Source of the DNA: Modestobacter sp. VKM Ac-2977 | GTDB lineage: Bacteria; Actinomycetota; Actinomycetes; Mycobacteriales; Geodermatophilaceae | DNA: 64,000 nucleotides | Direction: 5' to 3' | Assembly (NCBI RefSeq): GCF_026968045.1 | Contig: NZ_JAPVBQ010000002.1 | Location: 360,933 to 424,932 of the forward strand | Shown here: positions 6,191-21,428 of the stretch, in pieces | Position numbering within the stretch: the first letter of the stretch is position 1 | How the letters are laid out: every line of letters begins with the position of its first letter | Translations under genes and position numbers: made by a program | The notes under the pieces: generated by a model | Databases searched by the model: none | Told to the model about the DNA's origin: nothing | What the model saw: the letters and a program-made list of their open reading frames with translations, nothing else

Positions 6191-6586
6191 TCAGCCCTCC
6201 CCGTCGGCCACCTGGCGGGAGAGGTCGACGAGCTGCCGCAGGCAGTGCTCCCGCAGCGGCCCCGGGAAGCCGTCGGCCAGGCGGTAGAAGACGACCCGCC
6301 CGTCCTTGCGACTGGTGACGAAGCCGGCGGTGCGCAGCAGCCGCAGCGCGTAGCCGACCGCGTCCTCGGTCGCCTCCAGCGCCATCGCCAGGTCGCCCAC
6401 GCACAGCTCCTCGACCACGTCGAGGGCGTAGAGCACCCGGGCGCGGGTGGGATCGGCCAGCAGGCTCAGCATCGCCGACAGGCTCGTGGCGTCCTCACGG
6501 CTGGGCACCCGCGCCCTCGCCGCAGCCACGCGCACGGGATCGACCGGATGGGGATGGTCCGTCACGATCGGTGCGGTTACCCGCAC
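6191..6586 (-). CDS. ArsR/SmtB-type winged-helix regulator, divergent from the nuo-like operon
   Basis: A 131-residue protein with the ArsR core: LSLLADPTRARVLYAL, then ELCVGDLA (residues 60-67) at the alpha-3 position where CadC/ArsR sensors carry metal-binding cysteines (Cys62 here), then a wing with KDGRVVFYRL. A C-terminal helix holds His114-Cys115. The recognition helix (ATEDAVGYALRLL) is unusual. Metal sensing is possible but unproven, because only one alpha-3 cysteine is present. The first GTG (6586) lies inside a palindrome that looks like its operator, so the real start may be the in-frame GTG at 6565. It faces the nuo-like operon across 67 bp. Confidence 0.82.
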   Translation of the reverse strand: MRVTAPIVTDHPHPVDPVRVAAARARVPSREDATSLSAMLSLLADPTRARVLYALDVVEELCVGDLAMALEATEDAVGYALRLLRTAGFVTSRKDGRVVFYRLADGFPGPLREHCLRQLVDLSRQVADGEG

Positions 6587-6653: not shown

Positions 6654-7004
6654 GTGTCGGCCTACCTGAGCCTCGCCGCGATGCTGGGCCTCGCCGTCGG
6701 CGGTGTGCTGCTGGCCTACCTGCTGCACCGGCGGACCGCGGTGGCTCCGGGCGCGGTCGCGAGCCTGCCGTTCCTCTCCGGCTGGCGGCCCGCCGAACAC
6801 GCGCTGTCCCGGTACGAGGCGCGGTACTACCCGATGACCCTGCTCTTCCTCGCCTTCGACGTGGAGATGCTCTACATGTACCCGTGGGCGACCGTGGTCG
6901 CCTCGATCGGGACCTCGGCGATCGTCGAGATGTTCGTGCTGCTCGGCGTGCTGATGACCGGCGTGCTGTGGGCCTGGCGCGAGGGTGCGCTGCGGTGGAC
7001 CTGA
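6654..7004 (+). CDS. nuoA: NADH-quinone oxidoreductase subunit A-like protein
   Basis: A 116-residue membrane protein with three hydrophobic segments and the NuoA signature: PFLSGWRPAEHALSRYEARYYPMTLLFLAFDVEMLYMYPWA at 43-83, shown here in part by AFDVEMLYMYPWA. NuoA's usual cysteine-bearing E(C/S)G loop is replaced by GWRPAEHAL. The GTG start has GGAGGA 7 nt upstream (6641-6646), whereas longer in-frame starts run into the operator region. It is the first gene of an eight-gene operon of complex I membrane subunits. The next gene starts before its stop (10-nt overlap). Confidence 0.88.
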   Translation: MSAYLSLAAMLGLAVGGVLLAYLLHRRTAVAPGAVASLPFLSGWRPAEHALSRYEARYYPMTLLFLAFDVEMLYMYPWATVVASIGTSAIVEMFVLLGVLMTGVLWAWREGALRWT

Positions 7005-8116
7005 ACCGGCTGGCCGCCCGCCGCACCGCGGTCCTCGCCGTCGAGGTGCCCGGCTGGAGCCGCACCCGCTGCGCGCTCGAGGAGCACGTCCGGGACCGGG
7101 GCTGGCGGCTGGCCGGCTCCCCCGCCGACGCGGACCTGCTGGTCGTGTGTGGACGCCCCGGTGCCCGGTTGACCGCCGCGGTCGACCATGTCTGGAGCCA
7201 GCTGCCCGGCCCCCGCGCCCGGGCGGAGGTGACCACCGCCGCCGACGTCCCGGCCACCCTGGATCGTGCCGCGGCCGAGCTCGCCGACGGCGCAGCCCAG
7301 CGCCGCGACGCCGCCGACCGGCCGGCCGACCCCGACCCCGGCACCACCGCCACGGGCGACGGCGACATGGGCGACATGGACGACATGGACATGGACGACC
7401 ACGACATGGACGACTCCGGCGACATGGACATGGGCGACATGGACCACGGCGACATGGACCACGGCGACATGGACCACGGCGACATGGACCACGGCGACAT
7501 GGACATGCCGATGCCCGCCGGGATCGGCCTGGCCGGCGGCGGGGACGACGACCAGCTGCCCGACCCCGACGCCCTCGACCTCGACGTGCTGCACGTGCCC
7601 CTCGGCCCGGTGCTGCCGCACTGGCCGGCCGGCCTGCTGCTGCACACCACGCTCCAGGGTGAGCTGGTGGTCTCCGCCCGGGCGGAGGTCCTGCTACCGG
7701 CGGAGGACGCCCCTCCGGACGCGCCGGTGCACGGCACCCCGGCCGGCCGGTGGGACGCGGTGGCCACCCTGCTGGCGCTGGCCGGCTGGGACGACGCCGC
7801 CACCCGGGCCGCACGGGTCCGCGACGCCCTGCTCGCCGGGGGGCAGCCGCCCGAGGCCGAGCGGCTGGCTCGCCGGATCACCCGGTCCCGGCTGCTCCGC
7901 TGGTCGCTGAGCGGTCTGGGCCGGCTCCCCGAGGGCGATGCGCACGACCGGCTGCGGCACTGGCTGGAGGGGACCGAGCAGCGCCGGTCCACCGAGCTGA
8001 CCGCGGTGGCCGAGCTGGTCACCGGGCTGGACCTGGCCACCGCCCGGCTGGTGGTCGCCTCGCTCGACCTGGACACCGCCGACCGGGTGACCGTGCCGGC
8101 GGAGGCGGGCTCGTGA
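6995..8116 (+). CDS. Degenerate NuoB-NuoD-like fusion with a Met/Asp/His-rich linker
   Basis: A 373-residue protein of no family I can name with certainty. Residues about 11-100 read like NuoB without its cluster: RCALEE stands where NuoB has CCAIE, and SPADADLLVVCGR...AVDHVWSQLPGPR follows NuoB's SPRQADLLIVAG...LRRVYDQMPEP; the later ligand cysteines are gone. Residues 122-173 are almost only Asp, Met, His and Gly (14 Met, 5 His) with four exact GDMDH repeats. Residues about 193-235 (LDVLHVPLGPVLPH...GELVVSARAEV) resemble the N-terminus of NuoD. The remainder is helical with no NuoD C-terminal motif. It sits exactly where nuoB-C-D would lie, between nuoA and nuoH, overlapping both, so it is probably a structural adaptor of the membrane module. 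The linker could bind copper or another metal; that is inference. Confidence 0.75.
   Translation: MDLNRLAARRTAVLAVEVPGWSRTRCALEEHVRDRGWRLAGSPADADLLVVCGRPGARLTAAVDHVWSQLPGPRARAEVTTAADVPATLDRAAAELADGAAQRRDAADRPADPDPGTTATGDGDMGDMDDMDMDDHDMDDSGDMDMGDMDHGDMDHGDMDHGDMDHGDMDMPMPAGIGLAGGGDDDQLPDPDALDLDVLHVPLGPVLPHWPAGLLLHTTLQGELVVSARAEVLLPAEDAPPDAPVHGTPAGRWDAVATLLALAGWDDAATRAARVRDALLAGGQPPEAERLARRITRSRLLRWSLSGLGRLPEGDAHDRLRHWLEGTEQRRSTELTAVAELVTGLDLATARLVVASLDLDTADRVTVPAEAGS
7436..7495 (+). repeat. Four exact 15-bp tandem repeats inside the NuoBD-like gene
   Basis: The unit GACATGGACCACGGC occurs four times without a mismatch (7436-7450, 7451-7465, 7466-7480, 7481-7495) and encodes (Asp-Met-Asp-His-Gly)4. 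Imperfect GACATG units flank it on both sides from about 7366 to 7510. Exact in-frame repeats of this kind change copy number by slippage, so linker length probably varies among strains. Confidence 0.9.
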
Positions 8117-9030
8117 CCGTCACCGAGGTCTCGGTCGGCTGGGTGCCGATGGCGGCCGCACTGCTGCTCGTCGTGGCGGCCGCCGCGGCGAGCCTGGACG
8201 GCGCGCTGGCCGCGCGGTCCGCCGGGCAGCCGCTGGGTGGGGGCCTGCTCACCCCGGTGGCCGAGACGACGCGGCTGTTCCGCCAGCGCCGCCGGACCAC
8301 CGCGGCCGCGGACCTCCCGTTGCAGCGGATCGGCGGCGCCGGCCTGCTCACCGCAGCGCTGCTGATGGTCGCCGTCGTCCCGTTCGGCCGGTGGACCGTC
8401 GCCGACCTGACGGTGGGCATCGTCTGGTTCAACGCGATGGACGTGCTGGTGTGGGCGGCGGTCTGGCTGGCCGGCTGGGGCCCGAACAGCGCCCACGCCC
8501 TGGTCGCCGGGTACCGGTTCCTGGCCCAGGCGCTGTCCTACGAGCTGCCACTGATGTTCGCGCTGACCGCGCCGGCGGTCGCCGCGGGCAGCCTCCGGCT
8601 CGGTGACGTGGTGGCCGCGCAGTCCGGGCTGTGGTTCGTCGTCTGGATGCCGGTGGCATTCGGCGTCTTCTGCGTCGCGGTCGCCGGCTTCTCCGTCTGG
8701 GGGCCGCTCGGCGCACCCGCCAGTGGAGTGTTCACCGAAGCGTCCGGGGTCGACCGCTGGCTGCTCTCGACCGGGCGGTACGCGCTGCTGACCGCCGGGG
8801 CCGCCTTCGGGACCACCGCCTTCCTCGGCGGTGGACACGGGCCACTGCTGCCGGCCTGGCTGTGGCTGCTGGTCAAGACCGCCGGGCTGCTCGCGGTGCT
8901 CGTCGCGCTGCGGCGCCGGCTCCCGGTGGTCGCTCCGGAGCGGTTCGCGGCCCCCGCCTGGCTGGTCGCGCTCCCGTTGGTGCTGCTGCAGCTGCTGTTC
9001 GTGTCCGTCGTCGTCGTGGTCCAGGCCTGA
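8113..9030 (+). CDS. nuoH: NADH-quinone oxidoreductase subunit H-like protein
   Basis: A 305-residue membrane protein with about eight hydrophobic segments. Segments such as SYELPLMFAL and the C-terminal LPAWLWLLVKT...RRRLP match NuoH/HyfC layout, and GPLGAPASGVFTEASGVDR is a shortened form of the P-F-D-L-P-E-A-E-S-E-L loop that normally lines the quinone channel. That loop has lost most of its acidic residues, so normal quinone chemistry is doubtful. The GTG start overlaps the preceding stop (GTGA). NuoJ follows after 11 nt. Confidence 0.85.
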   Translation: MTVTEVSVGWVPMAAALLLVVAAAAASLDGALAARSAGQPLGGGLLTPVAETTRLFRQRRRTTAAADLPLQRIGGAGLLTAALLMVAVVPFGRWTVADLTVGIVWFNAMDVLVWAAVWLAGWGPNSAHALVAGYRFLAQALSYELPLMFALTAPAVAAGSLRLGDVVAAQSGLWFVVWMPVAFGVFCVAVAGFSVWGPLGAPASGVFTEASGVDRWLLSTGRYALLTAGAAFGTTAFLGGGHGPLLPAWLWLLVKTAGLLAVLVALRRRLPVVAPERFAAPAWLVALPLVLLQLLFVSVVVVVQA

Positions 9031-9041
9031 GGAGGGTGGAC

Positions 9042-9596
9042 GTGCTGACCGGGATCGTGTTCTGGGTGCTCGCCGTGATCGCCGTGGCCACCGGCGTCGC
9101 CGTCTTCCGGGTCGACTCGATGGCCCGGGCGACCTATGCGCTGGCCGCGTCCTTCATCGCCGTCGGCCTGGTGCTGCTGCTCGTCGACCTGGAGTTCCTG
9201 GGCGTCATCACCGTGCTGATGATGACCATGGAGATGGCCGTGATGGGCATCTACATGATCATGTTCATGGGGATGAACCCCGCGCTGATGCCGATGGACA
9301 TGGTGCACGGCAAGCGTCCGGCGCTGGCGGTCGCAATCGGCACGTTCGTCGTGCTGGCCGCCGGGGCGCTGCTGATCCCGTGGCCCACCCGCCGCGGGGC
9401 TCCCGCCGCCGACCTGGTGACCTCGCTGGGCGAGGCGGTCATGGAGTCGAAGATGCTGGTGATGATGACCGTCTCGCCGGTCCTCTTCGCCACGATCGTC
9501 GCCGCGCTGGTGCTGGCGTTGCCGAAGGGCCGGTACGACCGGCTCGGCGACGACCTGCGCGGTACGGACATGCGCGCGGGGAAGGCCCCGCGATGA
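9042..9596 (+). CDS. nuoJ: NADH-quinone oxidoreductase subunit J-like protein, methionine-rich
   Basis: A 184-residue, five-segment membrane protein in the NuoJ position; LLLLVDLEFLG-type and ESKMLVMMTVSPVLF segments fit the family. Residues 60-87 contain 12 methionines in 28 positions (VLMMTMEMAVMG, YMIMFMGMN, LMPMDMVHG), in and just after the third membrane helix where NuoJ normally has one or two. The GTG at 9042 is preceded by GGAGG at 6-nt spacing. A run of membrane-embedded Met recalls copper-conducting proteins, but no family link to those is visible. Confidence 0.85.
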   Translation: MLTGIVFWVLAVIAVATGVAVFRVDSMARATYALAASFIAVGLVLLLVDLEFLGVITVLMMTMEMAVMGIYMIMFMGMNPALMPMDMVHGKRPALAVAIGTFVVLAAGALLIPWPTRRGAPAADLVTSLGEAVMESKMLVMMTVSPVLFATIVAALVLALPKGRYDRLGDDLRGTDMRAGKAPR

Positions 9597-9895
9597 CGCT
9601 GCAGACGATGCTGCTGGTGGCGGCTGCGCTGTTCAGCGTGGGCCTCTACGGCGCCATCTCCCAGCAGGTCGTGGTCATGGTGATGATGGGCCTGGAGCTG
9701 ATGCTCAACGGCGTCATCCTCGCCGCCGCCGCCTTCTGGTGGTTCCTCTCCCCCACCCCCGACGGCCAGGTGCTGCTGCTCGTGGTGATCACCGCCATGA
9801 CGGTGGAGATGGCGATGGGCTTCGCCGTGGCCACCCTGCTGCACCGGTCCCGGCAGTCGGACATGACCGACATGGCCACGGACCTGTCCCGGTGA
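9593..9895 (+). CDS. nuoK: NADH-quinone oxidoreductase subunit K-like protein
   Basis: A 100-residue, three-helix MrpC/NuoK homologue. Both conserved membrane glutamates of NuoK are kept: Glu35 in MGLELMLNG and Glu72 in TVEMAMGFA, which form the half-channel next to NuoN. The C-terminus ends in a Met/Asp tail (SDMTDMATDL) that echoes the linker of the NuoBD-like protein. ATGA overlap with nuoJ and GTGA overlap with nuoL fix both ends. Confidence 0.9.
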   Translation: MTLQTMLLVAAALFSVGLYGAISQQVVVMVMMGLELMLNGVILAAAAFWWFLSPTPDGQVLLLVVITAMTVEMAMGFAVATLLHRSRQSDMTDMATDLSR

Positions 9896-11814
9896 CCGGG
9901 CTGCTGTGGGCCTGCGCCACGGTGCCGGCGGTCGTCGGCGCCGGGCTGTGCGTCACCGGACGGCGCGCGGACCGGGTGGCGCCGGCGCTCGGGATCGTCA
10001 CCGCGGGCGTCGTCCTGGTGCTGTCGATCGCGGTGGCGCTGGGCCGGCCGGTCACCTCGGCGCCCTTCCTGCCGGGTGCGGTGTTCGGGCTGGCCGTCGA
10101 TGCGCTGGCGGCCGTCGTGCTGCCCGCCGTCGCCGCCGTCACGCTGCTGGTGCTGCTGTTCGCCGCCGCCGACATCGCCGGTGCCCGGGCCCGGTTCACC
10201 GGTCTGACACTCCTGTTCGCCGCGGCCGTGGTGGTGACCGTCTGCGCCACCACGCTGCCGACGCTGCTGTTCGCCTGGGAGGTGATGGGCGCGACGTCGT
10301 ACGCGCTGATCGGCTTCCGCTGGCAGGAGCGGCACCGGGTCGGCGCCGGGCTGACCGCCTTCCTCACCACCCGCACCGCCGACCTCGGGCTGTACCTGGC
10401 CGCCGGGGCGGCGCTGGCCGGCGGGTCCGGGCTGGCGCTGACCGACCTGCCCGAGCTGCCGGCGCCCTGGCGGGACGTCGCTGCGGCCGGGCTGCTGGTC
10501 GCCGCGCTCGGCAAGGCCGCCCAGCTGCCGTTCACCGCCTGGCTCTCCGCGGCGATGCAGGGCCCCAGCCCGGTCAGCGCGCTGCTGCACTCCGCGGCGA
10601 TGGTCGCGATGGGCGGCTACCTGCTGCTGCGGGTGGCGCCGCTGCTCGGCGCGACGAGCTGGGCCGGGCCGACGGCGGCCTGGGTGGGCGCGCTGACCGC
10701 GCTGCTGCTCGGCGCGGTGGCGCTCGCCCAGCGCGACCTCAAGCAGCTGCTCGCCGCCTCCACCGCGGCGCAGCTGGGCTTCGTGGTGCTGGGTGCCGGG
10801 GTCGCGGCGGTGGCCGGCGGGACGGCGCACCTGGTCGCGCACGCGGCCACCAAGGCGCTGCTCTTCCTGGCCGCCGGGGCGTGGCTGACCGCGCTGGGCA
10901 CCAAGCAGCTGCCGGCGCTGCGCGGCGCCGCCCGGCGCTGGCCGCTGGTCGGCGTCTGCGCGGGGGTCGGGGCACTGGCGCTGGCCGGGGTGGCGCCGCT
11001 GTCGCTGTGGGCGACCAAGGACGCCGTCCTGGCCGGGGCGCACGAGGAGTCCCTGGCGCTGTACCTGGTCGGGCTGGCCGCCGCCGCGCTGTCGGCGGGC
11101 TACGCGGGCAAGGTGCTGTGGCTGGTCTGGCAGCGGCTCCCCGCGGACGCCGACGCCGGTTACGACACCGAGGAGGAGGGCACCCGTGAGGTGCGGGTGC
11201 TGCAGCAGGCGCCGCTGGTCGTGCTCGCCGTCGGCGCCGCCGTCCTCGGCCTGCTGGCCCTCCCCCCGGTCGCCGACACCCTGCGCCGGGCCCTCGGCTC
11301 CGGCAGCACGCCCACCCCGGGCCTGGTGGAGCTGGCCGTCTCCGCGCTCGTCGCCGTGGTGGTGCTCCTGGTCGTGCGGATCCGGCCGCTGCAGCCGCTC
11401 CCCGGGTGGCTCGAGGGATGGCTGGGGCTGGCCCGGGCGACCGACGTGGTCGTCGTCCGGCCGGTGCTGCGCACGGCCGAGGCGCTGGCCCGGTTCGACG
11501 ACCGGGTGCTCGCCCGCGCGGTGACCGGCGCCGGCCGGGGCGCGCTGCGGACCGCACGCGCGGCGGCCCGGTTCGACGACGGGGTGCTCGACCGGGCGGT
11601 GGCCGACTCCGCCACCGCCGGCGTGCGACTGGCCGGCGCCACGGGCCGGGCCGACCTCGCCGGGCCCGACGCCGCCGTGCGGTCGCTGGCCGCCGGCACC
11701 CGCTGGCTGGGGGGCTGGGCCCGGCGGACCCAGACCGGCCAGCTGCACCAGTACTACGTCTCCGCCGCCGTGGTGCTCGCCGCCGCGCTGGCCCTCCTCC
11801 TGGCAGTGAGGTAG
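9892..11814 (+). CDS. nuoL: NADH-quinone oxidoreductase subunit L-like proton-pumping subunit
   Basis: A 640-residue antiporter-like subunit with about 14-16 membrane segments and a long amphipathic/C-terminal extension. The pumping residues are present: Glu130 in [11 protein letters not shown] (E. coli Glu144), Lys208 in [13 protein letters not shown] (E. coli Lys229), the histidine in [10 protein letters not shown] and the lysine of [13 protein letters not shown]. The region from about 510 to 610 is a charged arm with repeated ARFDDxVL(A/D)RAV segments, corresponding to the lateral helix, followed by a final membrane anchor. NuoL/M/N homologues also occur in Mrp antiporters, but the A-H-J-K neighbours mark this as complex I-like. 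Confidence 0.92.
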
Positions 11815-11818
11815 CTCC

Positions 11819-13306
11819 GTGCTCAGTTCGATCATCTTCCTGCCCCTGGTCGCCGCGGCCCTGCTGGCCGTGCCCCGGGTGCCCGACCGGGTCGCCCGCT
11901 GGACCTGGATCGCGGTCACCGCCGCCGAGGTCGTGCTGGTCGGTGTGCTCATCGCCCGGTACGAGACGCCCGCCGACGGCGGTCTCGCCTTCGAGGAGCG
12001 CGCCCGCTGGATCCCGTCGGTCAACAGCAGCTGGCACGTCGGTGTCGACGGGCTCTCGGTGCCGCTGCTGGCGCTGACCGCGGTGGTGTTCTGCGCCTGC
12101 GCGGTCTACGGGCTGCGCGAGGACCGGCGTCCCCGCCAGCACGCCGCCCTCTTCCTCGCGCTGCAGGCCACCTGCATGGGGCTGTTCGCCGCCCAGGACC
12201 TGATCGTCTTCTTCGTCTTCTTCGACCTGTCGATCGTCGGCATGTACGCCGCGATCGCCGGCTGGGGGCACGGCCGGGACGCCGGCCGCTCGGCGCTGCA
12301 GTTCTTCCTCTACACGTTCCTGGGCAGCCTGGCGCTGCTGCTGGGCTTCATCGGCCTCTACCTGGCCGCCGACCCGCACACCTTCGACATCCCCGAGCTG
12401 ATCGCCGCCGCGCCGCTGCAGGACCACCCGGTCGCCGGCGGGTTCGTGCTTGCAGCGCTGCTCCTCGGCCTGGCGGTGAAGACGCCGACGATCCCGTTCC
12501 ACACCTGGCTGCCCCCGGCGCACACCGACGCCTCGGCGATCGGCTCGGCCGTGCTGGCCGCGGTGCTGCTGAAGATGGGCACCTACGGCTTCGTCCGGAT
12601 CGCCATGCCCGCCATGCCGGACGCCTGGCGCGGAGCCGCGTGGGTGGTGCTCGGGGTCGGGATCGCCTCGGTGCTCTACGGCGCACTGGTCGCCCTGGCC
12701 CAGACCGACGCCAAGCGGATGATCGCCTACACCTCGATCAACCACATGGGCTACGTGGTCCTCGCAGTCGGCGCGGCGGGCCTGCTCGGCGGGGGGACGG
12801 CGGCCCGCGAGCTGGCCGTGACCGGCGCCGTCACCCAGATGGTCAGCCACGGCCTGATCACCGGAGCCCTGTTCCTGCTGGCCGGGGTGCTGCACGACCG
12901 CACCGGCAGCTACGCCCTGCGCGACTACGGCGGCCTGGCCCGCAGCGCACCCGTCTGGTCGGGCCTGTTCGCGGTCGGCGCGTTCGCCTCGCTGGGCATC
13001 CCGGCGTTCAGCGGGTTCATCGCCGAGTTCCAGGTGTTCGCCGGGAGCATCGGCACCACGGCGTGGGCGGCGATCGCGCTGCCCGGGATCCTGATCACCG
13101 CCGCGCTGTTCCTCCGCGCGCTGCAGCTGCTGGTCACCGGGCTGCCCGGCGGGCGGTCGATCGGCTTCACCGACGTGCGGGCGGTCGAGGCGGTGCCGGT
13201 CACCGGGCTGCTGCTGCTGTCCTTGGCGATCGGCGTCCTGCCCTGGCTGCTGCTGGACCTGATCACCCCGGCGTCCGCCGTCCTCGTCGACCTGGTGGGC
13301 AGGTGA
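11819..13306 (+). CDS. nuoM: NADH-quinone oxidoreductase subunit M-like subunit
   Basis: A 495-residue antiporter-like subunit. LGLAVKTPTIPFHTWLPPAHTDA contains the central Lys221 (E. coli Lys234), and TDAKRMIAYTSINHMGYV and MVSHGLITGALFLLAG are family signatures. The helix-5 acidic residue is Asp136 in VFFDLSIVGMYAA, where complex I NuoM almost always has glutamate (FFE...P.Y). A conservative Asp may still carry a proton. The GTG start lies 4 nt after the nuoL stop. Confidence 0.92.
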   Translation: MLSSIIFLPLVAAALLAVPRVPDRVARWTWIAVTAAEVVLVGVLIARYETPADGGLAFEERARWIPSVNSSWHVGVDGLSVPLLALTAVVFCACAVYGLREDRRPRQHAALFLALQATCMGLFAAQDLIVFFVFFDLSIVGMYAAIAGWGHGRDAGRSALQFFLYTFLGSLALLLGFIGLYLAADPHTFDIPELIAAAPLQDHPVAGGFVLAALLLGLAVKTPTIPFHTWLPPAHTDASAIGSAVLAAVLLKMGTYGFVRIAMPAMPDAWRGAAWVVLGVGIASVLYGALVALAQTDAKRMIAYTSINHMGYVVLAVGAAGLLGGGTAARELAVTGAVTQMVSHGLITGALFLLAGVLHDRTGSYALRDYGGLARSAPVWSGLFAVGAFASLGIPAFSGFIAEFQVFAGSIGTTAWAAIALPGILITAALFLRALQLLVTGLPGGRSIGFTDVRAVEAVPVTGLLLLSLAIGVLPWLLLDLITPASAVLVDLVGR

Positions 13307-14727
13307 TGGAGCAGTCGCCGCTGATGCTGCTGCCCGAGCTGTGCCTGCTCGGCGGCGCGGTGGTCACCCTGCTGGCCGGCTCCTTCCTCCCCCGGCAGCG
13401 GCAGTGGGTCGCCCGGCTGATCGCGGTCGCCGCCCTCCTCGCCGCCGCCGTCTCCGCCGCCCTCGCCTTCCCAAGCCACCAAGATGGCCATTTTGGTGGT
13501 GGTGGAGACATGGAGACGGTGTTCGGGGCGTTCGTGCTGGACACCGCGACCGGGGTCACCCGGCTGGTGGTCGTCGCGGCGGTGCTGCTGGTGATCGGCC
13601 TGGGCGTCGACGAGCTGGCCGGGACGGCGCGGGAGAGCGAGACCTACACGCTGCTGCTGCTCGGCGGGCTGGGCGCGATCGTGCTGGCCGCCACCGACGA
13701 CCTGCTGGTGCTCGCCGTCGGCTTCCTGCTGGCCAGCATCCCGGTGTACGCGCTGGTCGGGATGGTCCGAACCCCCGGCGCAGCCGAGGCCGCACTGAAG
13801 ACGTACCTGCTCGGTGCACTGTCGGGGATCCTGCTGCTGCTCGGGGCCACGGTGCTGTCCGGCATCGCCGGCGGCACCGCCTACGTGGACCTGGCCGCCG
13901 GGCTGGCGGTGGCGCCCGCCGCCGCGGTGGCGGTCGGTGCGCTGGCGGTGCTCGCCGGCTTGTTGTTCGAGGCCGGCGGGGTGCCGCTGCACCAGTGGGT
14001 GCCCGACGCGACCCAGGGCGCCGGCACCGCAGCGGCGGCGTTCCTCACCACCGTGCCCAAGATCGGCGCGCTGGTCGCCGCCGCGCGGCTGGTCGACGTG
14101 CTGCCGGGCCCGCTGCCCTGGCCGCTGCTGGTCGGGCTGCTCGCCGCCGCCACCATGACGCTGGCGAACCTGGCCGCGCTCGCGCAGACCGACGCCCGCC
14201 GGCTGCTCGGCTGGTCGACGGTCAGCCAGGTCGGCTACCTGCTCATGCCGGTGGCCGTGGTGTCCAGCACCTCGGCCGCGGTGCCCGCGCTGCTCGTCTA
14301 CCTGGCCGGCTACGCGGTCACCAACCTGACCGCCTTCGCCGTGCTCGCCGCCGTCCCCGGGGCCCGGTCGCTGGCCGACTTCCGCGGCCTGGCCCGGCAG
14401 CGGCCGGGTCTGGCGGCCGCGCTGGTGATCAGCCTGCTGAGCCTGGTCGGCACCCCGCCGACGGCGGTCTTCCTGGGCAAGCTGACCGTCTTCACCGCCG
14501 CCTGGGACGGCGGCCTGGCCTGGCTGGTGGTGGTCGCCGCGGTGAACACCGTGGTCAGCCTCTTCTACTACCTGCGGTGGCTGGTCGAGGCGTTCCGGCC
14601 CGGCGAGCCCGCACCGACGGCCGACTGGGCCCGCGGCGCCGCGCTGGCCGGGGCGTTGGGCGTGCTGGCGGTCGGGCTCGGTGCCGGCCTGGTGACCGCT
14701 CTGGTCGGCGACGGCACCCTGGGCTGA
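13306..14727 (+). CDS. nuoN: NADH-quinone oxidoreductase subunit N-like subunit, canonical Glu/Lys missing
   Basis: A 473-residue antiporter-like subunit ending the operon. ALKTYLLGALSGILLL, TDARRLLGWSTVSQVGYLL and SLVGTPPTAVFLGKL are NuoN signatures. Two pumping positions are changed: helix 5 reads GFLLASIPVYAL, so Leu141 stands where NuoN has Glu, and helix 7 reads LLFEAGGVPLHQW, so Glu222 stands where NuoN has Lys. A hydrophilic His/Gly/Asp insert near residues 59-70 (SHQDGHFGGGGD) is encoded by an AT-richer palindrome. The ATG overlaps the nuoM stop by one base; a GTG one codon upstream is an alternative. Confidence 0.9.
   Translation: MEQSPLMLLPELCLLGGAVVTLLAGSFLPRQRQWVARLIAVAALLAAAVSAALAFPSHQDGHFGGGGDMETVFGAFVLDTATGVTRLVVVAAVLLVIGLGVDELAGTARESETYTLLLLGGLGAIVLAATDDLLVLAVGFLLASIPVYALVGMVRTPGAAEAALKTYLLGALSGILLLLGATVLSGIAGGTAYVDLAAGLAVAPAAAVAVGALAVLAGLLFEAGGVPLHQWVPDATQGAGTAAAAFLTTVPKIGALVAAARLVDVLPGPLPWPLLVGLLAAATMTLANLAALAQTDARRLLGWSTVSQVGYLLMPVAVVSSTSAAVPALLVYLAGYAVTNLTAFAVLAAVPGARSLADFRGLARQRPGLAAALVISLLSLVGTPPTAVFLGKLTVFTAAWDGGLAWLVVVAAVNTVVSLFYYLRWLVEAFRPGEPAPTADWARGAALAGALGVLAVGLGAGLVTALVGDGTLG
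13476..13499. repeat. 24-bp near-perfect palindrome inside nuoN
   Basis: The arms 13476-13487 and 13488-13499 pair at 11 of 12 positions around TGGCCA, with a local AT content far above the surroundings. It encodes the hydrophilic SHQDGHFGG insert of the NuoN-like protein. It looks like a small inserted palindromic element or a protein-binding site rather than normal membrane-protein coding sequence. Confidence 0.6.
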
Positions 14728-15284: not shown

Positions 15285-16730
15285 GTGGCGGCCTTGATCG
15301 ACACCGCCGTCCTGCAGTACGAAGACGACATCGACCACCAGCCATCGGGAGGGGTCACCGACCCCACAGCCCGTACCCCCGCGTCCCGGTTCACAGCCCT
15401 GCCGAAGTACCCCGTCCCCACCCCGCGGCCGCCCGTCGGCGCGCGGGCGGGTGCGGGGGTGCGGGCCCGGGCGCGCGCCTGGACCGGCAAGCTGCTGGCG
15501 CGCCGCATCCAGAAGCGCGGCATCGACCTCTCCAGCCTGACCTTCATCCCCGAGCGGACCAAGGTGCCGTTGCAGCGGGACGGCATCGACCCCGTCCCCC
15601 GGCTGGCGCAGCTCCGGGAGCACGACCCGGTGCACCGGCTGAAGCTGCCGTTCGCCTTCTCCGTGTACCTGGTCACCGGCGCGGAGCACGTCAAGGCGGT
15701 GCTGGCCGACCGGGACAGCTGGAGCAACGACATCCGGCACCTGCTGCCGGGCCCCGGCCCGAGCGGCGCCGACGAGGTCGGTGGCCTCGGGTTCACCGAC
15801 CCGCCGCTGCACACCCGGCTACGCAAGATCATCACGCCGGAGTTCACGATGCGCCGGTTGGCCCGGCTCGAGCCGATGATCGAGACGATCGTGGCGCAGC
15901 GGCTCGACGCACTGGCCGCCGCGGGCGCTCCGGCCGACCTGGCGAAGCTGGTCTCCTTCCCGGTGCCGTTCCAGACCATCTGTGCACTGCTGGGCCTGGA
16001 GCTGGACGACCGGGACGCGTTCGCCCGGCTCGGCGTCCAGCGCTTCGACGCGACCGCCGGCGCCGCCGCGGCCTTCGGTGCGGTCTCGGCGCAGCGCGAG
16101 TTCCTCTTCGACGCCGTCGCCCGGCAGCGCGCGGAGCCCGGCCCCGGGCTGATCGGCCAGATCATCCGGGACGAGGGCGACCGGATCTCCGACGTCGACC
16201 TCGCCGGCCTGGCCGACGGCGTCTTCACCGGCGGCTACGAGACCACCGCGGGGATGATCTCGCTGAGCACCATGGTGCTGCTGCGCGACCCCGCGCACGC
16301 CGCCCTGGTGCGCGACGGCTCGCGCGCGGACGTCGACCGGGTGGTCGAGGAGCTGCTGCGGCACCTGTCGGTCGTGCAGATGGCCTTCCCCCGGTTCGCC
16401 AAGCACGACCTGGACCTGTTCGGCGTGCCGCTGAAGGCCGGGGACGTCGTGCTGGCCTCGCTGAGCGGCGCGAACCGCGACCCCCGGTCCGCCGGGGACC
16501 AGCCGGAGGTCTTCGACCCCCTGCGCCGACCGAACTCCGGCCACCTGGCCTTCGGCCACGGGATCCACCGGTGCATCGGCGCGGAGCTGGCCCGGATGGA
16601 GCTGCGGGTGGTGCTGCCCGCGTTGTTCCGCCGCTTCCCCGACCTGGCGCTGGCCGTCCCGCAGCGGGAGCTGTCCTTCCGCGAGCTGTCCTTCGTCTAC
16701 GGCCTGGACGAGCTGCCCGTCCGGTTCTGA
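15285..16730 (+). CDS. Cytochrome P450
   Basis: A 481-residue P450 with the full set of landmarks: oxygen-binding I-helix FTGGYETTAG, the ExxR pair in VEELLRHLS, and the heme loop LAFGHGIHRCIGAELA with Cys430 as thiolate ligand. The first 90 residues are longer and more basic/proline-rich than in most bacterial P450s, so a start further downstream is possible; the GTG at 15285 has no clear ribosome site. It ends 140 bp upstream of oleA on the same strand. Substrate is unknown; acting on the olefin pathway product or its precursor is a context-based guess. Confidence 0.9.
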   Translation: MAALIDTAVLQYEDDIDHQPSGGVTDPTARTPASRFTALPKYPVPTPRPPVGARAGAGVRARARAWTGKLLARRIQKRGIDLSSLTFIPERTKVPLQRDGIDPVPRLAQLREHDPVHRLKLPFAFSVYLVTGAEHVKAVLADRDSWSNDIRHLLPGPGPSGADEVGGLGFTDPPLHTRLRKIITPEFTMRRLARLEPMIETIVAQRLDALAAAGAPADLAKLVSFPVPFQTICALLGLELDDRDAFARLGVQRFDATAGAAAAFGAVSAQREFLFDAVARQRAEPGPGLIGQIIRDEGDRISDVDLAGLADGVFTGGYETTAGMISLSTMVLLRDPAHAALVRDGSRADVDRVVEELLRHLSVVQMAFPRFAKHDLDLFGVPLKAGDVVLASLSGANRDPRSAGDQPEVFDPLRRPNSGHLAFGHGIHRCIGAELARMELRVVLPALFRRFPDLALAVPQRELSFRELSFVYGLDELPVRF

Positions 16731-16870
16731 GACCCGGCCACCAGGTGGCTGTGAGCTGCACCGCGGGTGGCCGCCGGGCGGCATACCGCTGTCCTCGTCG
16801 GGTAGTGCCCAACGGAACGCCGGCGACACACATGGAAGAGTCGGCCCTTCTCGAGGACTGGACCCCGCCC

Positions 16871-17896
16871 ATGAGTGGAAACGCCACGCACCGCTTCACC
16901 AACACCAGCATCTTGACCGTGCAGACGGCCGATGCCTCCCGCGTCGTCACCTCCGACGCCATCGACGAGCGGCTCGCCGACACCTACAAGCGGGTCGGGC
17001 TGCGCCCTGGCCTGCTCGAACGGCTGGCCGGCATCCGTGAGCGCCGGTGGTGGGAGGACGGCGTGACGTTCGTCGACGGCGCGGCCATGGCCGGCGCCAA
17101 GGCGATCAGCGAGAGCGGCGTCGACCCGGCCGGCATCGGCCTGATGGTCAACACCTCGGTCAGCCGCCGGTACCTGGAGCCCTCGACGGCCGTCGCCGTC
17201 CACCACGCGCTGGGACTGCCGCGTTCGGCGCAGAACTTCGACGTGACCAACGCCTGCCTGGGCTTCGTCAACGGCATGGAGCTGGCCGCGGCGATGATCG
17301 ACTCCGGGATGATCGAGCACGCCGTGATCGTCAACGGGGAGGACGCCCAGACGGTCCAGGACCGGACCATCGACCGGCTGAACCAGCCCGACACCACCGC
17401 CCGCGACGTGATCGCCCAGTTCGCGACGCTGACCCTGGGCTCGGGAGCCGCCGCCATGGTGCTCGGCCGGTCCGACCAGCACCCGGAGGGGCACCGGCTG
17501 GTCGGCTCGGTCAGCCGGGCCGGCACCGAGCACCACGAGCTGTGCATCGGCGACAACGACGAGATGCGCACCGACCTCAAGGGCCTGCTGGAGGCCGGGC
17601 TGGACCTGTCGATGGACATGTGGGAGGAGGCCGCCGCGGACTTCGACTGGCAGCGCGGCATGGACCGCTACGTCATCCACCAGGTCTCCAAGGTGCACAC
17701 CGCCGCCATGTGCGAGCGGTTCGGCATCGACGAGTCCCGGGTGCCCAAGACCTTCCCCACCCGCGGCAACCTGGGCCCGGCCTCGGTGCCCTTCACCCTG
17801 GCCCACGCCCAGCACGAGCTGGTCGACGGCGACCGGGTGCTGCTGATGGGCATCGGCTCGGGCCTCAACGCCTCCTGCCTCGAGATCGCCTGGTGA
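16871..17896 (+). CDS. oleA: OleA-type thiolase: head-to-head condensation of fatty acyl-CoAs
   Basis: A 341-residue thiolase-fold enzyme related to FabH. The catalytic triad is in place: Cys129 (TNACLGF), His270 (VIHQVSKVHT) and Asn300 (GNLGPASVPF). OleA joins two fatty acyl-CoAs to a 2-alkyl-3-ketoacid, the first step of long-chain olefin synthesis. Assignment as OleA rather than FabH rests on the next two genes, which encode OleB-OleC and OleD in the canonical order, overlapping it. The start at 16871 is the likeliest; an in-frame ATG at 16832 adds 13 residues. Confidence 0.88.
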   Translation: MSGNATHRFTNTSILTVQTADASRVVTSDAIDERLADTYKRVGLRPGLLERLAGIRERRWWEDGVTFVDGAAMAGAKAISESGVDPAGIGLMVNTSVSRRYLEPSTAVAVHHALGLPRSAQNFDVTNACLGFVNGMELAAAMIDSGMIEHAVIVNGEDAQTVQDRTIDRLNQPDTTARDVIAQFATLTLGSGAAAMVLGRSDQHPEGHRLVGSVSRAGTEHHELCIGDNDEMRTDLKGLLEAGLDLSMDMWEEAAADFDWQRGMDRYVIHQVSKVHTAAMCERFGIDESRVPKTFPTRGNLGPASVPFTLAHAQHELVDGDRVLLMGIGSGLNASCLEIAW

Positions 17897-20463
17897 CGAC
17901 GCCGACCGACCTCCCGGCCGGGCTCCCCGGGCTCGACCCGGCCTGGTCCCGCCGGGTCACCGTGGCCGACGCCACCGGCACCAAGCACGAGTGGCACCTG
18001 CTGGACAACGGGGTTCCCGACCCGGTGGGCACGTTGCTCTGCGTGCACGGCAACCCCACCTGGTCCTACCTCTGGCGCCGGCTGCTCGCCGCCGCCCCGC
18101 CCGGGTGGCGGGTGATCGCGCCCGACCAGCTGGGCATGGGCTTCTCGGCGCGGCTCCCCGGGCCCCGGCCACTGGAGCAGCGGGTCGCCGACCTCGGTGA
18201 CCTGACCGCTGCGCTGGGCCTCACCGGCCCGGTGATCACCGTCGGCCACGACTGGGGCGGGGTCATCTCGCTGGGCTGGGCGCTGGCGCACCGCGACCAG
18301 CTGCGCGGCGTCGTCCTGGGCAACACCGCCGTCTCGATGCCCGAGGGCGACCTCGGCCCGGTGCTGATCCGGATGGCGCACGCCCCCGGGGTCCGGTCGG
18401 CGGTCACCGTCGGCACCCCGGCCTTCGTCCGGGCGACGACGGCGATGTCCCGGCCGCCGCTGCCGGCCGACGTCCGCAACGCCTTCGCCGCGCCCTACCG
18501 GACGGCGGCCCGCCGGCGGTCGGTCGGGGACTTCGTGGCCGACATCCCCTTCTCCCCCGGCCACCCCTCGCGGGCCGCGCAGGAGGAGATCGCCGAGGGC
18601 ATCCGTTCCCTCGACGTCCCGGCGCTGCTGCTGTGGGGTCCGCGCGACCCGGTCTTCGGCGAGCGGTACCTGGCCGACCTGCGCGAGCGGATGCCCCAGG
18701 CCCAGCTGCACCGCTACGAGGGCGCCTCGCACCTGCTGCCCGAGGACGCGCCGCAGTACGCCGATGCGGTCGCCCAGTGGGTCAGTGACCTGTCCACCGG
18801 CCGGTACACCGCCGACACCGCCGAGCGCCCGCGCAACGCGCAGCCCCAGCCGCGGGGCCTCGGCTCGGCGCTGGCGGACCGGGCCGCCGACGACTCCCCC
18901 GCCGTGGTCGAGGTCGGTGGGGCCACGGTCAGCTGGGCGCAGCTGCACCGCCGGGTCGAGCACCTGGCCGCCGGGCTGGCCGACGCCGGCATCCGCCCGG
19001 GGCAGCGGGTCGCCCTGCTGTTCGAGCCCTGCGCCGATCTCACCGCCGCGGTCTACGCCGTCTGGCGGGCCGGTGCGGTCATCGTCGTGGCCGACAAGGG
19101 CCTGGGCCTGCGCGGCATGCGGCGGGCGCTGCACAGCGCCCGGGTCGACGCGGTCATCGGCGGTGCCCCCGGGCTCGCGGCCGCCCGGGCCATGCGGCTG
19201 ACCGCCACCCGGATCGCCGCCACCCCGCTGCCGGCAGCCGCAGCGCGGACGCTGGGGGTGGCCCACACGCTCGAGGAGCTGGAGCGCGCGGGCAGCACCG
19301 CGCCGCTGCCCCCCGAGGCCGACCTGGACACCGACTGCGCCGTCCTGTTCACCTCCGGCGCCACCGGGCCGGCCAAGGGCGTCGTCTACACCCGGCGCCA
19401 GGCGATGGCCCAGCTGGACCTGGTCGGTGCCACCTACGGGCTGTCCCCCGACGACCGCCTGGTCGCCGGCTTCGCGCCGTTCGCCCTGTTCGGCCCGGCG
19501 CTGGGCATCGGCTCCGCAGTCCCCGACATCGACGTGACCGAGCCCGGCTCGCTGACCGCGGCCGCCCTCGCCGACGCGACGGCGGCGATCGACGGCACGG
19601 TCGTGTTCGCCTCGCCGGCCGCGCTGCGCCGGGTCGTCGCCACCGCCGGCGAGCTGACCGAGCCCCAGCGGACCGCGCTGGGCCGGGTGCGCCTGCTCAT
19701 GTCCGCCGGAGCGCCGGTGCCGCTGCCGTTGCTGCAGGAGCTGCGCCGGGTGCTGCCCGCGGCAGCTGCGCACACCCCGTACGGGATGACCGAGGTGCTG
19801 CCGGTCACCGACGTCTCCGCGACCGAGGTCGAGGCCGCCGGCCCCGGGAACGGCGTGTGCGTCGGCCGGCCGCTGCCCGGCGTCGAGGTCCGGGTCAGCC
19901 CGCTGTCCCCGACCGGGTCGGCCGACGGCGACCTCACCGACGTCCCCGGGACGACCGGTGAGGTCGCCGTGCGGGCCGCGCACGTCAAGGAGCGCTACGA
20001 CGCGCTGTGGGCCACCGAACGCGCGTCGTCCCGCGACCCGGGCTGGCACCGGACCGGCGACGTCGGGCACCTGGACGCCGAGGGCCGGCTCTGGTTCGAG
20101 GGCCGGCTGCCGCACGTGGTGACCACCGCCACCGGGGCGGTCACCCCGGTCGGCGTCGAGCAGCGGGTGCAGCTGCTGGACGGCGTCAGCGCCGCCGCCG
20201 TCGTCGGCGTGGGGCCGGTCGGCGCCCAGGTCGTGGTGGTGGTCGTCGTCCCCGCCGACGGTGCACGCCGCCGCACCGGGTTCGAGCTCGCCGGTCCTGC
20301 GCTGGCCGACGCCGTCCGCGAGGCCGCCGGCCCCGAGGTCGCCGCCGTCCTGGTCACCGGCCGGCTGCCGGTCGACATCCGGCACCAGTCGAAGGTCGAC
20401 CGGCGGGAGGTGGCCCGGCGCGCGACCCGCACGCTCGCCGGTGCGCGGGCACGTACCCGATGA
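17893..20463 (+). CDS. oleBC: OleB-OleC fusion: beta-lactone decarboxylase plus beta-lactone synthetase
   Basis: One 856-residue chain. Residues 1 to about 305 are an alpha/beta hydrolase of the haloalkane-dehalogenase type (HGNPTWSYLWR, nucleophile Asp120 in GHDWGG, His280 in GASHLLPEDAP), which is OleB and decarboxylates a beta-lactone to the olefin. Residues about 330-856 are an AMP-dependent synthetase (LFTSGATGPAKG at 485-496, YGMTEVLPVTD, RTGDVGHLDAEG), which is OleC and forms the beta-lactone from the beta-hydroxy acid with ATP. Natural OleBC fusions are known from actinobacteria. GTGA overlap upstream with oleA and ATGA downstream with oleD show tight translational coupling. Confidence 0.9.
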   Translation: MTTPTDLPAGLPGLDPAWSRRVTVADATGTKHEWHLLDNGVPDPVGTLLCVHGNPTWSYLWRRLLAAAPPGWRVIAPDQLGMGFSARLPGPRPLEQRVADLGDLTAALGLTGPVITVGHDWGGVISLGWALAHRDQLRGVVLGNTAVSMPEGDLGPVLIRMAHAPGVRSAVTVGTPAFVRATTAMSRPPLPADVRNAFAAPYRTAARRRSVGDFVADIPFSPGHPSRAAQEEIAEGIRSLDVPALLLWGPRDPVFGERYLADLRERMPQAQLHRYEGASHLLPEDAPQYADAVAQWVSDLSTGRYTADTAERPRNAQPQPRGLGSALADRAADDSPAVVEVGGATVSWAQLHRRVEHLAAGLADAGIRPGQRVALLFEPCADLTAAVYAVWRAGAVIVVADKGLGLRGMRRALHSARVDAVIGGAPGLAAARAMRLTATRIAATPLPAAAARTLGVAHTLEELERAGSTAPLPPEADLDTDCAVLFTSGATGPAKGVVYTRRQAMAQLDLVGATYGLSPDDRLVAGFAPFALFGPALGIGSAVPDIDVTEPGSLTAAALADATAAIDGTVVFASPAALRRVVATAGELTEPQRTALGRVRLLMSAGAPVPLPLLQELRRVLPAAAAHTPYGMTEVLPVTDVSATEVEAAGPGNGVCVGRPLPGVEVRVSPLSPTGSADGDLTDVPGTTGEVAVRAAHVKERYDALWATERASSRDPGWHRTGDVGHLDAEGRLWFEGRLPHVVTTATGAVTPVGVEQRVQLLDGVSAAAVVGVGPVGAQVVVVVVVPADGARRRTGFELAGPALADAVREAAGPEVAAVLVTGRLPVDIRHQSKVDRREVARRATRTLAGARARTR

Positions 20464-21428
20464 GGGTGCTGGTCACCGGGGCCAGCGGCATGCTCGGCCG
20501 GGCCACGGTGCAGGGCCTGCTCGACCGGGGCGACGAGGTGACCGTGCTGCAGCGCCGCCCGGCCGGGCTGCCCTGCCGAGAGGTGCGCGGCGACGTCGCC
20601 GACCCGGCGGTGGTGGCCCGCGCGGTGGCCGGGCAGGACACCGTGGTGCACCTGGCCGCCAAGGTCGACGTCACCGGACGACGGGCGGAGTACACGCGGG
20701 CGAACATCGACGGGACCCGCGCGGTGGTCGCCGGCTGCCGCCGCGCCGGGGTGGGCCGGCTGGTGCACGTCTCCTCGCCGTCGGTCGCGCACGGCGGCTC
20801 GGCGCTGGTCGGGGTCGGCGCACAGCCGGCCGACCCGGCGCGCGCCCGCGGGCACTACTCCCGCTCGAAGGCCGTCGCCGAGCAGGAGGCACTGGCCGCG
20901 GACGACGCCGCGCTCGCCGTGCTCGCGGTGCGCCCGCACCTGGTCTGGGGGCCCGGGGACACCCAGCTGGTCGGACGGATCGTCGAGCGGGCCCGGACCG
21001 GGCGGCTGCCGGTGATCGGCTCGGGTGCCGCGCTGATCGACACCACCTACGTGGACAACGCCGCCGCTGCCCTGGTCGCCGCCGTCGACGCCTGCGGGCC
21101 GGTGCACGGGGAGGCACTGGTGGTCTCCAACGGTGAGCCCCGTCCGGTCGCTGAGATCATCGACCGGTTGTGCCGGGCCGCCGGCGTCCGCAGCCCGAGC
21201 CGGCGGGTCCCCTTCCCGGCGGCCTGGGCCGCCGGGGGTCTCGTCGAGGGGGTCTGGGCGGCGACGCAGCGCCGGGACACTCCCCCGCTGACCCGGTTCC
21301 TGGCCGAGCAGCTGGCGACCGCGCACTGGTTCGACCAGCGCCGCACCCGCGAGGCGCTGCGCTGGACGCCGCAGGTGTCGCTGGACGAGGGCTTCACCCG
21401 GCTGGCGCAGGCCTACGCCGCGGCCTGA
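20460..21428 (+). CDS. oleD: OleD: NAD(P)H-dependent 2-alkyl-3-ketoacid reductase
   Basis: A 322-residue extended SDR of the 3-beta-HSD/epimerase type. It has the GASGMLG nucleotide loop, HLAAKVDVTG, SSPSVAHGG and the catalytic Tyr133-x3-Lys137 (HYSRSKAVAE). In the Ole pathway it reduces the keto acid made by OleA to the hydroxy acid used by OleC. The position directly after oleBC, with a 4-nt overlap, supports this role over a generic epimerase. Confidence 0.88.
   Translation: MRVLVTGASGMLGRATVQGLLDRGDEVTVLQRRPAGLPCREVRGDVADPAVVARAVAGQDTVVHLAAKVDVTGRRAEYTRANIDGTRAVVAGCRRAGVGRLVHVSSPSVAHGGSALVGVGAQPADPARARGHYSRSKAVAEQEALAADDAALAVLAVRPHLVWGPGDTQLVGRIVERARTGRLPVIGSGAALIDTTYVDNAAAALVAAVDACGPVHGEALVVSNGEPRPVAEIIDRLCRAAGVRSPSRRVPFPAAWAAGGLVEGVWAATQRRDTPPLTRFLAEQLATAHWFDQRRTREALRWTPQVSLDEGFTRLAQAYAAA

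Follow-up and report, generated by a model that had tools for sequence, protein, structure and literature searches.

Organization of the Operon

The window, that is, the whole stretch of 64,000 nucleotides from Modestobacter sp. VKM Ac-2977 that was analyzed, carries at positions 6654–14727 an operon with the gene order A-BD-H-J-K-L-M-N, as defined by gene calls and Pfam. NuoA, H, J, K, L, M, and N, the full set of complex I membrane subunits, were all matched by Pfam in this order. The forward strand encodes a NuoA-like subunit (6654–7004; PF00507, 6e-24), the BD protein (6995–8116), a NuoH-like subunit (8113–9030; PF00146, 8e-37), a methionine-rich NuoJ-like subunit (9036–9596; PF00499, 1.6e-10), a NuoK-like subunit (9593–9895; PF00420, 3.8e-14), and three antiporter-like subunits: NuoL (9892–11814; PF00361, 1.1e-43), NuoM (11819–13306; TIGR01972, 437.5 bits, above the cut-off of 263.8), and NuoN (13306–14727; TIGR01770, 285.8 bits, below the cut-off of 332.6). 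The NuoN gene may start at 13303 or at 13306. No nuoC, E, F, G, or I, and no extra gene of any kind, was called within the operon. Together with the profile and fold evidence for BD given below, this bears out a sequence-only reading that had described NuoA, H, J, K, L, M, and N plus one pseudo-NuoB/NuoD fusion, with NuoC, E, F, G, and I missing. Among 81 loci, window included, the subunits are widely retained (79 loci for A, 78 each for H and K, 77 for J, and 73 for BD, with a complete L/M/N triple at 75), and a decaying complex I was set aside as an explanation.

Upstream, on the reverse strand, lies a divergent gene for an ArsR/SmtB-type metalloregulator (6191–6586; NCBIfam HTH_metalloreg, 70.7 bits against a cut-off of 55). 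By clustering, members of the same regulator cluster occur at 25 of 80 named loci, and most of them conserve a Cys (ELCVGDL) and a His-Cys pair (EHC).

The sequence-only reading had also raised the question of whether the genome carries a separate nuo operon, and such an operon was found. The only Pfam NuoD of the genome lies on another contig, in a canonical stretch for which Pfam confirmed B, C, D, E, F, G, H, and I; the NADH module E, F, G and the Fe-S subunit I were found in this separate operon and have no counterpart among the gene calls of the module described here.

The Fused NuoB/NuoD Protein

BD is a protein of 373 amino acids without a Pfam or NCBIfam match, which we assign as a fusion of pseudo-NuoB, linker, and pseudo-NuoD from a profile search, Foldseek, and the Pfam matches of its relatives. 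A profile built from 18 BD proteins matched NuoB of solved complexes (E 3.5e-4), limited to about positions 28–78. Foldseek with the predicted BD model placed NuoB chains on top (probability 1.00, best E 4.9e-3), with nothing at E ≤ 0.001, and HHalign gave a probability of 92 for BD against NuoB and a weak 1.3 against canonical NuoD. PF01058 was matched weakly by two BD relatives (0.031 and 0.05) and PF00346 by two (1.3e-11 and 2.7e-7); homology to NuoD rests on these PF00346 matches and on the fold.

In the alignment of BD proteins longer than 300 amino acids, with loci L119 and L120 set aside, no cysteine is family-wide, the best column having Cys in 43 of 67 sequences. BD is accordingly not a NuoB with conserved cluster-N2 cysteines, and the absence of canonical Fe-S ligand sets claimed earlier held. 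In canonical NuoD, the loop GPQHPSTHG contains a histidine that binds quinone. Actinobacterial BDs mostly have GPVLPxWP instead, as far as a weak direct alignment to NuoD allows the loops to be equated, and BD does not appear to be a NuoD with a quinone-site histidine loop. An intact NuoB or NuoD was rejected because of the missing Pfam match and the missing family-wide cysteine. As judged from these sequences, conserved Fe-S ligands and a redox arm are absent from the module.

Residues 108–197 of BD are neither helix nor strand in the predicted model, and this region includes linker repeats rich in Met, Asp, and His (MDHG; 7361–7513, +). MDHG-type linkers recur in the family alignment, and the B-D linker is often a Met/His/Asp-rich, putatively metal-binding segment. 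A heavy-metal-binding domain (HMBD; PF19335, 2.6e-14) was detected in the BD of Sulfitobacter, the only one of six plasmid BDs in the Pfam scan to have it, and 6 of 18 plasmid BDs are annotated as "heavy metal-binding". Among the 62 BD proteins with a DGL motif whose linker composition was measured, at least 15, including six from Salinispora, have linkers poor in His and Met (H+M of 0.08 or less). His-rich tails are present on J or K of some relatives.

Conserved Methionines and Ion-Channel Residues

In NuoJ, across 77 actinobacterial sequences, 15 Met, one Glu, and one His are at least 97% conserved, and canonical NuoJ of the same genome has another residue at 14 of those 15 Met positions. 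Residues 62–91 (9219–9308, +) carry the signature MM..EM..M...M.M.M.MNP..M.M.M.H. In a set of 35 actinobacterial representatives sharing less than 80% identity, at least 97% invariance was seen in 15 of 17 Met columns, versus 8 of 58 Ile/Leu/Val columns (Fisher p 2e-8). The helix-3 core MM..EM..M was present in all nine plasmid NuoJ aligned, which come from nine of 18 plasmid regions and of which five are proteobacterial; outside the actinomycete set this core is kept and the 15 Met are not all kept. A DNA pattern for the core found exactly the same 45 of 112 family genomes as BD did, and the reversed pattern found none of the 112. A one-sided Met stripe on helix 3 was not significant (p 0.15). 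In NuoK, M29, M31, M32, M69, and M73 are conserved at 99–100% in 78 sequences, with a weaker contrast (in 17 representatives, 4 of 11 columns for Met versus 5 of 31 for Ile/Leu/Val), and in NuoA, E71, M72, M75, E92, and M93 reach a rounded 100% in 79 sequences. At the sequence level, J and K have invariant methionines adjacent to glutamates that are either kept or new.

For methionine conservation and channel residues, loci with exactly three L/M/N genes were counted. By E. coli numbering, all 75 NuoL sequences keep E144, K229, H254, H338, K342, and K399; of the 78 NuoK sequences, all have E36 and 75 have E72. The NuoK of the window has E35 and E72. In NuoM, Asp replaces E144 of transmembrane segment 5 in 73 of 75 sequences, the other two being gaps; in NuoN, the corresponding E133 is lost (Leu in 71 of 75), and K217 is Glu in the window and in 12 of 75 sequences and Lys in 63. 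NuoH keeps E. coli E157 in 77 of 78 sequences and has Arg for E241 in 77 of 78. The earlier claim that NuoL and NuoK retain their proton-channel residues was thus correct, with NuoM and NuoN requiring the corrections above, and the channel residues of L, M, and K appear largely kept. With ion-channel residues largely kept and no redox arm, another partner or energy source is implied, as had been proposed.

Genomic Neighborhood and Distribution

CsoR lies no more than 6 kb from BD in 14 of the 45 family genomes that have it, versus 0 of 100 genomes for canonical nuoD, among the matches listed (150 CsoR places; for the control, 101 nuoD places in 100 of the 102 genomes with a match; NuoD fragments and additional pieces of one BD were set aside). 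CsoR, CopZ, CopA, Csp/DUF326, or multicopper oxidase lies near 35 of 80 named loci, as determined by clustering in which Pfam served to name one representative of each cluster, the genus labels including those of MAGs; by the same clustering, the five families are absent at the other 45, including all 6 Salinispora loci. Copper or heavy-metal genes were present in 11 of 18 plasmid regions and absent from 7. At the window locus, the 18 neighboring gene calls scanned contained no copper family, only the ArsR-type regulator. Over the family, the genes of the module are strongly enriched next to copper-defense genes, and together with the methionines and the metal-binding segments this makes a copper link of the module well supported.

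The module occurs in many genera, of which marine ones are only a part, and copies reside on conjugative or mobilizable plasmids. Of 51 genomes with a BD match in the phylum, 18 were dropped because E exceeded 1e-6; in 16 of these 18, the match covered only the NuoB-like stretch at profile positions 35–78 and was taken for canonical NuoB.

Possible Function of the Module

The loss of redox parts, the gain of conserved metal-binding features, and the frequent proximity of copper-defense genes suggest that the module handles copper rather than making energy. The reading we favor, at a probability of about 40%, is that a complex I membrane arm has been rebuilt into a proton-coupled, copper-handling, and probably Cu(I)-exporting machine. 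A membrane complex of H, A, J, K, N, M, and L would be capped on the cytoplasmic side by the shrunken, fused NuoB/NuoD pair. Cu(I), perhaps also Ag(I), would be picked up at the BD linker and pass along a Met/Glu path through A, J, and K. Protons moving through L, M, and N would be coupled to this passage, and the proton-motive force might in this way drive copper out of the cytoplasm by an exporter acting beside the ATP-driven CopA. Least secure in this scheme are the choices of export over import and of transport over sensing. In the cytosol, Cys ligands normally bind Cu(I) with very high affinity, and pick-up there by Met/His/Asp is for this reason not obvious. More tentatively still, the module may represent a transition-metal transporter of a new class, a Cu(I)/Ag(I) exporter driven by the proton-motive force and spread by plasmids across Actinomycetota and Pseudomonadota, in which the charge path of complex I became a Met/Glu copper path and the NuoB/NuoD interface a metal-collecting cap.

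Copper could instead be a signal and not the cargo: metal bound at BD and J/K would do no more than gate the flow of ions through L, M, and N, and the module would be a copper-regulated cation/proton antiporter or pump that protects pH or membrane potential under copper stress. The largely kept channel residues of L, M, and K and the position of BD, where complex I couples chemistry to pumping, fit this rather unlikely alternative, and the copper neighbors are as compatible with gating as with transport; yet gating would hardly need some 15 invariant NuoJ methionines, and no separate energy source for a pump is visible. An improbable idea is that of a proton or sodium pump for salt or osmotic stress, with copper neighbors as a by-product of mobile islands; such a pump, too, would need a source of energy, and no redox centre is seen. 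Published accounts, as far as available, stress marine and saline strains, the Salinispora copies have no copper neighbors by clustering, and the plasmid location suits such islands, but the occurrence in many genera beyond the marine ones and the absence of CsoR near canonical nuoD (0 of 100 among the matches listed) speak against it, and the invariant methionines and metal-binding inserts would be left unexplained.

Copper might also replace the Fe-S chain, bound at the BD linker or HMBD and passing an electron to quinone in a copper-redox-driven pump. A metal-binding insert where the redox path was, with multicopper oxidases nearby, speaks for this; the mostly GPVLPxWP loop and the linkers low in His and Met in at least 15 of 62 BDs speak against it, and we regard it as quite improbable. 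That the module is an alternative membrane arm borrowing the canonical NuoB–I modules seems very improbable: a canonical operon exists in the same genome, but it has its own membrane arm, the NuoB/NuoD place is already taken by BD, and 58 of the 102 NuoD-bearing family genomes lack the module. Likewise, the add-on arm for normal complex I offered by the sequence-only reading is unlikely because the separate operon brings its own membrane subunits and because the module occurs in 45 of 112 family genomes versus 102 of 112 for NuoD. That reading was right about the missing redox arm and the channels; it missed the prior publication of the nuo genes and the copper evidence (methionines, metal-binding insert, and neighbors).

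If the copper-handling machine is real, genes that have been classified since 2012 as a marine pump for protons or sodium would form a copper system and, on mobile plasmids, an unrecognized determinant of copper tolerance. If metal movement can drive the membrane arm of complex I, or be driven by it, without electron transfer, the module would be a natural redox-free version, allowing a direct test of how the charged axis and antiporter subunits are coupled, a long-standing question about complex I.

Comparison with Known Systems

Seven genes of the module are already in print: nuoAHJKLMN was published as a partial nuo operon of "marine adaptation" ("NDH-1 partial 2") in Salinispora, Kocuria, and Streptomyces, and was read, in the parts of the papers available, as pumping protons or sodium in sea water or under osmotic stress. 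Compared by gene content and order alone, this operon shares its seven nuo genes and their order with the window module, and at six Salinispora loci of our set the genes A, BD, H, J, K, L, M, and N are all present. The available parts of these accounts mention neither the BD gene, the methionines, nor copper; titles and abstract openings of the literature searched, subscription papers lying outside its scope, gave no copper link either, and the link is new here. For a redox-free complex I, the matches, as seen from the same kind of text, were reviews of complex I and one of chloroplast ndh, together with a structure paper and an inhibitor preprint.

Complex I (NDH-1) shares with the module homologous NuoA, H, J, K, L, M, and N and most channel residues of L, M, and K; the module differs in lacking NuoC, E, F, G, and I, in its fused and shortened B/D without conserved cysteines, and in its Met-rich J and K. 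Mrp-type antiporters and the energy-converting hydrogenases (Ech, Mbh, Hyf) use NuoL/M/N-like antiporter subunits as the module does, but Mrp has no NuoH or NuoA and the hydrogenases retain redox-active NuoB/NuoD homologues. An Mrp antiporter (mrpA–G) was rejected on the presence of NuoA and NuoH and the lack of further gene calls in the operon. The copper exporters CusA (RND-type) and CopA (P-type) occur in the gene neighborhoods of the module. CusA uses methionine stepping stones with proton coupling; the subunits of the module match complex I families, and therefore its scaffold would differ from those of both CusA and CopA.

A Complex I-Derived Operon in Addition to a Canonical Complex I

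Gene calls placed eight genes between positions 6654 and 14727 of the window, where the sequence-only reading had located an operon: nuoA (6654-7004), the gene for a 373-aa protein termed here BD (6995-8116), nuoH (8113-9030), nuoJ (9036-9596), nuoK (9593-9895), nuoL (9892-11814), nuoM (11819-13306) and nuoN (ending at 14727), with overlaps of a few bases between several of them. All were matched by Pfam except BD, which had neither a Pfam nor an NCBIfam match and whose best named match was from Modestobacter caceresii (91%), in line with a host close to Modestobacter. NuoC, E, F, G and I, reported missing by that reading, were likewise absent from the operon gene calls, and a divergent gene for an ArsR/SmtB-type regulator (NCBIfam) lies upstream. 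The 4.3-Mb genome also has a separate nuo operon: around its single Pfam NuoD, Pfam identified NuoB, C, E, F, G, H and I as well, and further gene calls fit A, J, K, L, M and N in size and place, of which L, M and N additionally match PF00361. Because this canonical complex I is present, the module is an extra one and not the remnant of a sole complex I. In G000, a genome with both canonical and copper-linked sets, two more NuoL/M/N-type gene pairs occur (C1:95647-99931 and C11:301122-305172), which are perhaps Mrp-like antiporters.

BD had been described from sequence as a pseudo-NuoB/NuoD fusion. A profile built from 18 BD proteins matched the NuoB (NDUFS7) chains of solved complexes (E 3.5e-4, 48 positions). 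In the AlphaFold model (pLDDT 78, pTM 0.74), confidence is high for the N-domain and most of the C-domain; the region between them has low confidence and contains no helix or strand. Foldseek placed NuoB chains at the top with probability 1.00, yet the best E was only 4.9e-3. The NuoD half was recognized through relatives, since PF00346 was matched by the BDs of Sulfitobacter (1.3e-11) and Halomonas (2.7e-7); the other four of six plasmid BDs scanned had no PF00346 and at most a weak PF01058 match. On these NuoB matches and the PF00346 matches in relatives, the fusion label stands. No cysteine of BD is conserved family-wide in the family alignment.

The segment joining the two halves varies in length and, in most of the 30 BDs aligned from the family, has a high content of Asp, Met, His and Gly (MDHG-type repeats). 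In Sulfitobacter, this position holds a Pfam heavy-metal-binding domain (2.6e-14), absent from the other five plasmid BDs scanned by Pfam, and a heavy metal-binding annotation was found on 6 of 18 plasmid BDs. The median His plus Met fraction of 62 measured linkers was 0.155; at least 15 of them, including the six from Salinispora, were poor in these residues (0.08 or less), which counts against a metal-binding linker. NuoJ carries a His-rich tail, distinct from the BD linker, in Halomonas, Roseivivax and Acuticoccus, as does NuoK in one Nocardiopsis. In several family genomes (e.g., G013, G020, G014, G010 and G030), BD matches fall on two contigs, one part lying at the end of a contig; assembly breaks at the MDHG repeat are the probable cause. 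On plasmid pA of Pseudarthrobacter defluvii, an IS3 transposase splits the BD region (8593-11989), the other module genes being annotated at normal length.

Invariant Methionines in NuoJ, NuoK, and NuoA

Methionine averages 9.4% in NuoJ of the module (77 sequences) versus 2.0% in the canonical NuoJ of the genome, and 9.0% versus 5.1% in NuoK; no enrichment was found in L, M and N. In NuoJ, Met is at least 97% conserved across the 77 sequences at columns 29, 62, 63, 67, 70, 74, 76, 78, 80, 85, 87, 89, 136, 140 and 143, and E66 and H91 are 100% conserved; canonical NuoJ differs at 14 of these 15 Met positions. As a control within the protein, using 35 representatives below 80% identity, 15 of 17 Met columns were at least 97% invariant versus 8 of 58 Ile/Leu/Val columns (p 2e-8). 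The same contrast was weaker in NuoK (4/11 versus 5/31; 17 representatives) and was based on few columns in NuoA (3/6 versus 3/33). M29, M31, M32, M69 and M73 of NuoK lie near E35 and E72, and M72, M75 and M93 of NuoA near E71 and E92. In the NuoJ model (pLDDT 74), Met 62-78 belong to helix 3 and Met 136-143 to helix 5; a one-sided Met stripe on helix 3 of the model was not significant (p 0.15). The helix-3 core MM..EM..M was kept in all nine plasmid NuoJ proteins, five of them proteobacterial, while not every one retained all 15 Met.

Because Met has a single codon, the NuoJ signature could be followed at the DNA level. The pattern picked out 45 of the 112 family genomes, the very set that has BD, and its reverse gave zero matches there. 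In an even phylum sample it occurred in 34 of 396 genomes, including 31 of the 33 that matched the BD profile with E <= 1e-6; six loci fetched from these 33 all carried the signature, three with a P-type ATPase motif nearby.

Copper Genes around the Module

Among the CsoR matches listed, which are incomplete to the same extent for both counts, CsoR lay no more than 6 kb from BD in 14 of 45 family genomes versus 0 of 100 for canonical nuoD (p 1.5e-8, assuming independence, which shared ancestry lowers). By clustering of genes up to 10 kb either side of BD, CsoR, CopZ, CopA, Csp/DUF326 or multicopper oxidase occurred at 35 of 80 named actinobacterial loci (18 of 34 genus labels), and none of the five at 45. 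From 30 plasmid records with a NuoJ match, 18 regions were taken, one per genus. Copper or heavy-metal genes were present in 11 (Arthrobacter FB24, Halomonas, Roseivivax, Sulfitobacter, Curtobacterium, Acuticoccus, Rubrobacter, M. paragordonae, Pseudonocardia, Roseovarius and Nitratireductor) and absent from seven (Gordonia, Paracoccus, Rhodococcus, Pseudarthrobacter, Ornithinimicrobium, Thioclava and Vreelandella), that of Ornithinimicrobium having just ArsR and DUF305. In Rubrobacter, genes for DUF305, a P-type ATPase, a metal-sensitive regulator and a copper ion binding protein precede A-BD-H-J-K-L-M-N.

Clustering gave no copper neighbours for the six Salinispora copies, and Pfam found no adjoining copper family among 18 gene calls neighbouring the window copy. 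Nearest to the window copy, besides the ArsR-type regulator, are genes for a PucR-type regulator, an NAD(P)-binding protein, an unmatched protein of 136 aa and a P450, and a fatty-acid/olefin-type cluster. For the window copy, the case for copper comes from family membership and the shared methionines. At 15285-21428 stand in a row a cytochrome P450, a KAS III-like protein, an alpha/beta hydrolase-AMP-ligase fusion and a 3beta-HSD-like dehydrogenase, resembling the OleA-OleBC-OleD olefin pathway preceded by a P450. Cold-shock proteins are usually single-domain; a 363-aa protein at 32240-33331 has four stretches matching the cold-shock domain PF00313.

Proposed Mode of Action and Known Partial Operons

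The channel residues (E. coli numbering) were compared at actinobacterial loci. NuoL keeps E144, K229, H254, H338, K342 and K399 (75/75). NuoM keeps K234, K265 and E407 (75/75), with E144 replaced by Asp in 73 of 75. NuoN keeps K247 and K395 (75/75) and has lost E133 (Leu in 71/75); at K217, Lys is retained in 63 of 75, and the window copy has Glu. In NuoH, E157 is kept in 77 of 78 and E241 is Arg in 77 of 78. Together, the data give good support for a copper-linked, redox-free module derived from complex I. In the most likely mode of action, protons would enter through L, M and N, and Cu(I) would be gathered at BD and passed outward along the Met/Glu path in NuoA, NuoJ and NuoK. The main rival explanation is that copper gates a proton or cation path in the module.

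In the titles and abstract beginnings of the open-access papers listed by our searches, we found no link between the operon and copper and no description of BD. A seven-gene "partial 2" NDH-1 operon of Salinispora was read as a marine adaptation (Penn and Jensen 2012, PMC3314556), and the partial-operon description was taken up for Kocuria flava (PMC6002675), a deep-sea Streptomyces (PMC8622039) and a sponge Streptomyces (PMC6676996). The Kocuria flava paper names copD as another adaptation gene of the same strain and draws no tie to the operon (PMC6002675). Copies of the partial operon were also noted in rhizosphere strains and in one strain from copper-rich fluids, and a role in general osmoadaptation was argued (PMC6676996).
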